From Alphaproteobacteria bacterium (GTDB lineage Bacteria > Pseudomonadota > Alphaproteobacteria > Micropepsales > Micropepsaceae), in assembly GCA_947467345.1 (NCBI GenBank), contig CANIHD010000016.1, positions 18,481 to 82,480 of the forward strand: 64,000 bases of DNA, given 5' to 3'. Below the pieces are notes generated by a model. That model was not told where the DNA came from, made no database searches, and saw only the letters and a list, made by a program, of their open reading frames with translations. The position numbers were made by a program, and so were the translations under genes. Shown here one piece after another: positions 4,714 through 19,328 of the stretch (the stretch's first letter is position 1; the number at the start of each line of letters is the position of its first letter).

Positions 4714-4885
4714 GTATAAGCACCTGTCATTGGGGAGTAGCCGCCCGGACCTCCACCGGGGCACGTATCAACAGACTTGGCCCTCGCGGGCTATGGTGCG
4801 CGCTGGAAGCATCCGCCAGAAAAAAGTGCCTATCGCACTTTTTCGTCCGGCGGTGCGACCGATAAAACGGCGAGACCTTTGGCTC
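4714..4885 (+). ncRNA. yybP-ykoY family (Mn2+) riboswitch aptamer, approximate bounds
   Basis: Contains TTGGGGAGTAGCCGCC (4729-4744), ATCAACAGACTTGG and CGAGACCTTT blocks resembling the conserved loops of the yybP-ykoY aptamer; lies directly upstream of a TMEM165/GDT1 family gene, a known partner of this riboswitch class. Confidence 0.82.
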
Positions 4886-4923
4886 TTCGTTTTCCGTCCG
4901 GGGTCGGGCGAAAACGAAAAGCC
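4881..4923 (+). promoter_or_regulatory. Long hairpin, candidate riboswitch expression platform
   Basis: GGCTCTTCGTTTTC (4881-4894) pairs with GAAAACGAAAAGCC (4910-4923), 13 of 14 positions; 37 nt before the ATG at 4961. Confidence 0.6.
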
Positions 4924-17447: not shown

Positions 17448-18593
<1,146 letters not shown>

Positions 18594-18637
18594 TCACGCT
18601 TGGAAGAAGGGGCGCCGGTTGGAACCCCTGTTCCCAA

Positions 18638-18723
18638 GAATCGTGATTCACCGGAGTCTGTGGGTCAATAGGCGTTTTGAATCAGGGAGTTAAAAATGAG
18701 TCCCATTTGAGTCCCCATGATTC
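18638..18723. promoter_or_regulatory. Cluster of seven GANTC sites upstream of ccrM
   Basis: GAATC 18638, GATTC 18645, GAGTC 18654, GAATC 18679, GAGTC 18698, GAGTC 18709, GATTC 18719, read directly. Confidence 0.85.
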
Positions 18724-19328
18724 ACAGCACACAATATCTGGTAGACCGGTGCAAAAGATCTTCGGTGGTGGCGGGTGGGGCCGACCGATTTCAGGGCGGT
18801 GAGATGCTCGTCGGTGCCGTAGCCTTTGTTGGTCAGCCAGCCATAGAACGGGTGCTCATCGTGTAGAGCGCGCATCATGCGATCGCGCGTGACCTTGGCG
18901 ATGATCGATGCCGCTGCAATCGAAACTGAGCGCCCGTCGCCGCCAATCAGCGTGTCGCAGCGGCAGGGCAGGGCCGGCGCATCATTGCCGTCCACCAGCG
19001 CGAATTTTGCGGCGGTCGTCAGCGCGCGAACCGCACGCGCCATGGCGAGATGCGTCGCCTGGCGAATATTGAGAAGATCGATTTCATCGACCGAGGCTTC
19101 GCCGACGCCGACGCAAGACGTCTCCATGATCCGCACGAACGCGTCTTCGCGCGCGGCGGCAGTCATCTTTTTGGAATCGTCGAGCCCTTTGGGAATGCGC
19201 TTGCGGTCGAGAATGACGGCGGCAGCTACCACGGGCCCAGCCAATGGTCCGCGGCCAGCTTCGTCAACGCCGGCAATGGGGCCTTCGACAGTCTTCAGCC
19301 AGCGCGCTTCGTAAATGTAATGCGGCAT
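18690..19328 (-). CDS. rnhB: ribonuclease HII
   Basis: 212 aa; IAGVDEAGRGPLAGPVVAAAVIL, ASIIAKVTRDRMM. Confidence 0.95.
   Translation of the reverse strand: MPHYIYEARWLKTVEGPIAGVDEAGRGPLAGPVVAAAVILDRKRIPKGLDDSKKMTAAAREDAFVRIMETSCVGVGEASVDEIDLLNIRQATHLAMARAVRALTTAAKFALVDGNDAPALPCRCDTLIGGDGRSVSIAAASIIAKVTRDRMMRALHDEHPFYGWLTNKGYGTDEHLTALKSVGPTRHHRRSFAPVYQILCAVNHGDSNGTHF

Follow-up and report, generated by a model that had tools for sequence, protein, structure and literature searches.

A conserved two-site GANTC core and a helically phased array in the predicted ccrM promoter of Alphaproteobacteria

Introduction

CcrM holds a central place in the epigenetic regulation of Alphaproteobacteria, and in Caulobacter the leader of its own gene carries two GANTC sites. 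What is known of the control of ccrM itself comes, to our knowledge, mostly from Caulobacter and rhizobia. A methylation system of a different kind is found in E. coli, where SeqA acts on clusters of hemimethylated GATC sites spaced by turns of the DNA on one face of the helix.

GcrA is a dimeric protein that prefers methylated GANTC and recruits RNA polymerase; it covers -35 to +7 of the fully methylated ctrAP1 promoter, and only short stretches of it when the DNA is hemimethylated (PMC3667746). When GANTC sits between the -35 and the -10, Caulobacter promoters become active at 40-60 min (PMC4287350), and ccrM has been described as 'most probably' under direct methylation control in this organism (PMC3973325). 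Promoters of the GcrA/GANTC type are therefore already known, as is the proposal that methylation controls Caulobacter ccrM. An earlier comparative study tallied GANTC sites over promoter regions of 500 bp without reaching a conclusion (PMC2877005).

Here we analyze a stretch of 64,000 nucleotides (the window) from an alphaproteobacterium of the Micropepsaceae, in which seven GANTC sites crowd upstream of ccrM. Like the Caulobacter GcrA promoters ctrA P1, mipZ, podJ, and ftsN, this promoter has GANTC near or within the -35/-10 region and lies in a genome that encodes GcrA; in those promoters the reader binds methylated GANTC (PMC3667746, PMC4287350, PMC3885167), whereas here the use of GcrA is predicted. 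The Caulobacter promoters mostly have one site, with more than one within 50 bp in 11 of 96 cell-cycle promoters (PMC4287350), whereas the ccrM promoters described below have two core sites at fixed positions and a phased array of up to eight. The Caulobacter ccrM promoter (compared by description, outside our set of loci) serves the same gene and has the same proposed direct control by methylation (PMC3973325), but it is activated by CtrA, and no full CtrA box is present here. SeqA/GATC clusters likewise consist of several methylation sites at turn spacing, but their methylase, motif, and reader are different. The literature we searched, outside which key subscription papers lie, held no description of a conserved two-site ccrM core or of a phased array.

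Results

The genome (2.49 Mb, an assembly 96% complete in 25 contigs) has one copy of ccrM. Its product combines an N6 adenine methylase domain (Pfam N6_N4_Mtase, PF01555, 1.2e-69) with a C-terminal RAMA domain (PF18755, 1.2e-18), as expected of CcrM. It matches the NCBIfam model of Caulobacter-type CcrM (NF050803) over the full model length with 643 bits, under the curated cut-off of 830; because the model is narrow, this score counts against the label 'Caulobacter-type equivalog' and not against CcrM. With 61-82% identity among full-length alphaproteobacterial matches, the enzyme presumably methylates GANTC. The predicted ccrM leader showed no unusual RNA structure, folding no better than shuffled sequences (z 0.58). 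Across the window, the sole Rfam match was a manganese riboswitch (yybP-ykoY, RF00080; window 4720-4905, + strand, 60.3 bits), away from the ccrM promoter.

An earlier note on this DNA had counted seven GANTC sites in 86 bp, and we recovered every one at the position it gave (Table 1): four in the gap between the genes (18576-18689) and three, as it said, within rnhB, whose ORF ends at 18690. It had put the chance expectation for 86 bp at about 0.3 sites; the excess is real, but that figure is too high, and we obtain 0.21 because GANTC is depleted in this genome, to one site per 387 bp. This background comes from 464 kb of stretches of the same genome, together with whole-genome pattern searches; in the window itself there are 147 sites, against 294 in dinucleotide shuffles. 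About 7e-4 such clusters are expected per genome (Poisson), and when the same number of sites was placed at random over 464 kb, a maximum of six came up 6 times in 2000 trials, while seven did not occur. A search of the whole genome for linked triplets of GANTC returned no other chain of at least five sites, making the ccrM cluster the densest found in the genome. Equal density elsewhere, which would have spoken against the note's reading, was looked for and did not turn up. Within the sampled 464 kb, the next-densest cluster has five sites in 89 bp (G000:C3 50141-50229, or L120:141-229, where G000 is this genome). It is found in the upstream region of a gene for a B12-dependent ribonucleotide reductase, and this region is a candidate for a further methylation-controlled promoter.

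Table 1. Features of the ccrM-rnhB region, in window coordinates; promoter positions (-35, -10 and the like) are predicted.
Feature	Position	Strand	Remarks
ccrM, GANTC adenine methyltransferase, 375 aa	17448..18575	-	Pfam, NCBIfam
Predicted ccrM leader	18576..18633	-	start predicted near 18633 on the basis of the -10
Extra GANTC (GAATC on +), ~-9..-5	18638..18642	.	common to few relatives
Predicted -10, CACGAT (CAnnnT)	18640..18645	-	first base shared with GANTC 18645-18649
Core site 2, GANTC abutting the -10, ~-16..-12	18645..18649	.	position nearly invariant
Core site 1, GANTC in the -35/-10 spacer, ~-25..-21	18654..18658	.	central base free
Predicted -35, TTGAC	18664..18668	-	in the search pattern, hence invariant by construction
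Upstream GANTC, ~-50..-46	18679..18683	.	kept also in Rhodobacteraceae and Pelagibacteraceae
TTAAC element in the vacant -25 array slot	18689..18693	-	includes the rnhB stop codon
rnhB (RNase HII)	18690..19328	-	last residues are a non-conserved tail overlapping the array
Phased upstream GANTC within rnhB ORF	18698..18702	.
Phased upstream GANTC within rnhB ORF	18709..18713	.
Outermost phased GANTC, within rnhB ORF	18719..18723	.

The cluster is, as far as its sequence allows us to predict, the ccrM promoter itself. We compared 122 ccrM loci (30 related genomes, 80 named GTDB loci, and 12 anchored loci out of 13 more), searching for TTGAC followed by two GANTC within a spacing range. The core TTGAC-n-GANTC-n-GANTC-A-nnn-T is present in 74 of these 122, a proportion that is not an unbiased frequency for the class because the named loci represent the nearest relatives by CcrM. 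Counted from TTGAC, a GANTC mostly follows 8-10 bases on, a second one comes at +19, and then an A and, 4 bases later, a T. The search pattern left this A and T free; among the promoters with the second GANTC at +19, to which the core logo was limited, the A is kept in 28/28 promoters of the family and 41/41 of other families, and the T in 26/28 and 41/41, respectively. With TTGAC as the -35 and a 17 bp spacer, the A and the T occupy -11 and -7, where conservation of a -10 element is strongest, and the C of the second GANTC becomes the first base of the -10 hexamer. The two core sites thereby lie at about -25 and about -16, within or next to the -35/-10 elements. As predicted, the -35 (TTGAC) is good and the -10 (CAnnnT) weak; a generic scan detected no sigma70 promoter in the ccrM direction, which fits the weak -10. 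At its exact spacing, TTGAC-N14-GANTCA occurs a single time in the genome, at ccrM.

The central base of core site 1 varies freely in promoters of the family (C in 11, G in 12, A in 3, T in 3). That GA-TC is kept while N varies points to methylation as the conserved function: selection for CcrM methylation would be expected to fix GA-TC and leave N free, a pattern unlike the site of a methylation-blind factor.

On the ccrM strand, four further GANTC sites lie upstream of the two core sites and one lies downstream. Across the family (31 promoters, one of which, L031, is an apparent duplicate of L002) the median is six GANTC, occupying slots at about -55, -45, -34, -15, -5, +8 to +10, and +19 from the first T of TTGAC; the -25 slot is filled by TTAAC in place of GANTC. 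The window promoter is without the -5 site, present in 18/31 promoters of the family, and has an extra site at +26. A period scan gave a peak of 10.5 bp whether it took in all sites, genus-weighted positions, or the window only, and mean within-promoter phase coherence was 0.69, against 0.39 (sd 0.03) under random placement; relatedness inflates this test, and the genus-weighted and single-promoter values agree with it. TTAA[CG]-N4-6-GATTC occurs in 14/26 core promoters of the family, and the TTAAs-GATTC element is found in Pelagibacteraceae as well.

The earlier note had suggested that the array might constrain the C-terminus of RnhB. Measured from TTGAC, the stop codon of rnhB falls anywhere between -154 and +18 depending on the species, leaving 0-5 GANTC inside the ORF; the tails of relatives vary in length and sequence, and the window tail with its three GANTC lies beyond the RNase HII family models. 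At four loci the core is present and rnhB is not adjacent. These observations do not support a C-terminal constraint. The cluster belongs to ccrM, as the note had it: its position is fixed to ccrM and not to rnhB, and it is kept in orthologous promoters. Given the sliding stop and the four loci where rnhB is not adjacent, the constraint is on the ccrM promoter DNA, and the rnhB tail follows passively.

In a quick CcrM tree, the core appears on most deep branches, including Rhodobacteraceae, Kordiimonas, Sneathiella, Dongia, and Pelagibacteraceae. It is absent from the whole Hyphomicrobiales clade (14 rows in that tree), where the ccrM promoter region holds 0-3 GANTC, so that the objection that orthologous promoters might lack the cluster mostly fails but does hold for this group. 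Hyphomicrobiales ccrM promoters (L065, L083, L090, L101, L109, and others) share instead a TTTAC-N7-GGTAACCATAA-like element. An element resembling GTAACCAT, which we regard as CtrA-like, was detected at 13/19 Hyphomicrobiales loci versus 0/74 core promoters. Two loci labelled Candidatus Marinimicrobia (L093 and L096) carry an alphaproteobacterial-type ccrM and rnhB pair, with a CcrM that groups with Rhodospirillaceae-like sequences; they are probably mislabelled bins.

Both candidate regulators are encoded in this genome: GcrA (PF07750, 7.6e-50) and a CtrA ortholog with 80% identity to the Caulobacter CtrA query. The earlier note had also pointed to the coupling of Caulobacter ccrM to CtrA/GcrA. 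The full CtrA box TTAA-N7-TTAA is found in 0/74 core promoters, the window included, where there is a TTAAC half site only, so coupling to CtrA through a full box is not supported here, and we set CtrA aside as the main driver of ccrM. In three Pelagibacteraceae genomes no CtrA ortholog was detected (best match ~32% identity), and all three keep the core. GcrA was found in two; the third, with the core, is a small genome of single-cell type and possibly incomplete. A core kept without CtrA points to GcrA, rather than CtrA, as its reader.

A motif of similar make-up occurs at another gene. In relatives (L135-L141), TTGAC-N4/5-GAATC-N6/7-GATTC precedes, by ~35 bp, the ATG of a gene encoding an FtsB-like protein. 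This ftsB-type promoter is present in ~20 genomes of several families, with ftsB followed by pdhA in most, and may be a second conserved promoter of the ccrM-core kind. The window's genome has no exact match to TTGAC-N5-GAATC-N7-GATTC; its best match has one mismatch.

Discussion

The anatomy, conservation, and phasing of the array, and the gcrA and ctrA genes, are observed here. Taken with what is known of GcrA, they suggest that the ccrM promoter is probably of the GcrA-sigma70 type, with an output that depends on GANTC methylation. The autoregulation through methylation that the earlier note had proposed is in keeping with the cluster and with a core kept in orthologous promoters; from the densest cluster of the genome, its spacing of about one turn, and its retention in many relatives, we conclude that ccrM very probably senses the methylation state that CcrM itself makes. 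That this amounts to a 'strong switch' at ccrM is a step we infer.

GcrA bound to the methylated core GANTC would recruit or stabilize sigma70-RNA polymerase and so rescue the weak -10. The upstream sites, which intervals of 10.5 bp place roughly on one side of the helix, would add to GcrA occupancy in a cooperative manner, so that promoter output would respond steeply to the completeness of methylation. CcrM would in this way adjust its own production to whether the DNA, once the replication fork has passed, is hemimethylated or fully methylated. Our preferred sign, at this stage a guess, is that ccrM would be on while hemimethylated after replication and damped when full methylation lets GcrA coat the promoter; we favor it because positive feedback alone would not shut ccrM off. 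GcrA binding, methylation dependence, sign, and timing are all what we infer in this scheme. Since the extended motif preferred by GcrA is disputed (PMC7987155), sequence cannot prove that GcrA is used.

We also entertain a bolder version, possible if doubtful, in which the phased array would be a methylation-counting device. A cooperative reader, GcrA or another protein, would assemble along one face of the DNA only when several sites share a methylation state, giving sharp, SeqA-like feedback timed by replication; the device would be ancestral and replaced by CtrA control in Hyphomicrobiales.

Other explanations have to be weighed against the GcrA-sigma70 reading. Control could be of the Caulobacter style, with CtrA activating ccrM through the TTAAC box and GANTC methylation merely fine-tuning its shut-off. 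CtrA does activate Caulobacter ccrM and binds the Brucella ccrM promoter (PMC2877005), the ortholog is encoded here, and the family keeps TTAAC in the -25 slot. Yet none of the 74 core promoters has the full box, TTAAs-GATTC and the GANTC core persist in Pelagibacteraceae that lack a CtrA ortholog, and the Hyphomicrobiales, which do carry the GTAACCAT element, are without the core. We therefore consider CtrA as the main activator unlikely, although it could contribute through the TTAAC half site.

A little less probable still is that another protein (CcrM, a MucR-type protein, or a reader of hemimethylated DNA) represses ccrM from the phased array in the manner of SeqA. A protein multimer bound along one face of the DNA would need such 10.5 bp phasing, and MucR-type proteins reportedly occlude GANTC methylation in alphaproteobacteria; against this, sites at -27/-25 and -16 have the known geometry of GcrA activation, not of pure repression. 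That the cluster is functionless, a product of chance or of rnhB coding, is scarcely credible, since the placement of three sites in rnhB codons is all that favors it and it is already contradicted by the conservation data: such clusters are far too rare by chance, and this one is conserved in dozens of species wherever rnhB ends, and at the four loci without an adjacent rnhB.

The GcrA-sigma70 reading bears on how ccrM control may have evolved. From the persistence of the core even where CtrA is absent, we suggest that feedback through GcrA and methylation is the older arrangement and that CtrA control is a replacement in Hyphomicrobiales, whose ccrM promoters offer a clean contrast set for CtrA-type control. 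A position-resolved view reveals a signal that counting per 500 bp (PMC2877005) did not. More generally, the phased array lends itself to asking what number of sites, and in which methylation state, sets the output of a promoter.
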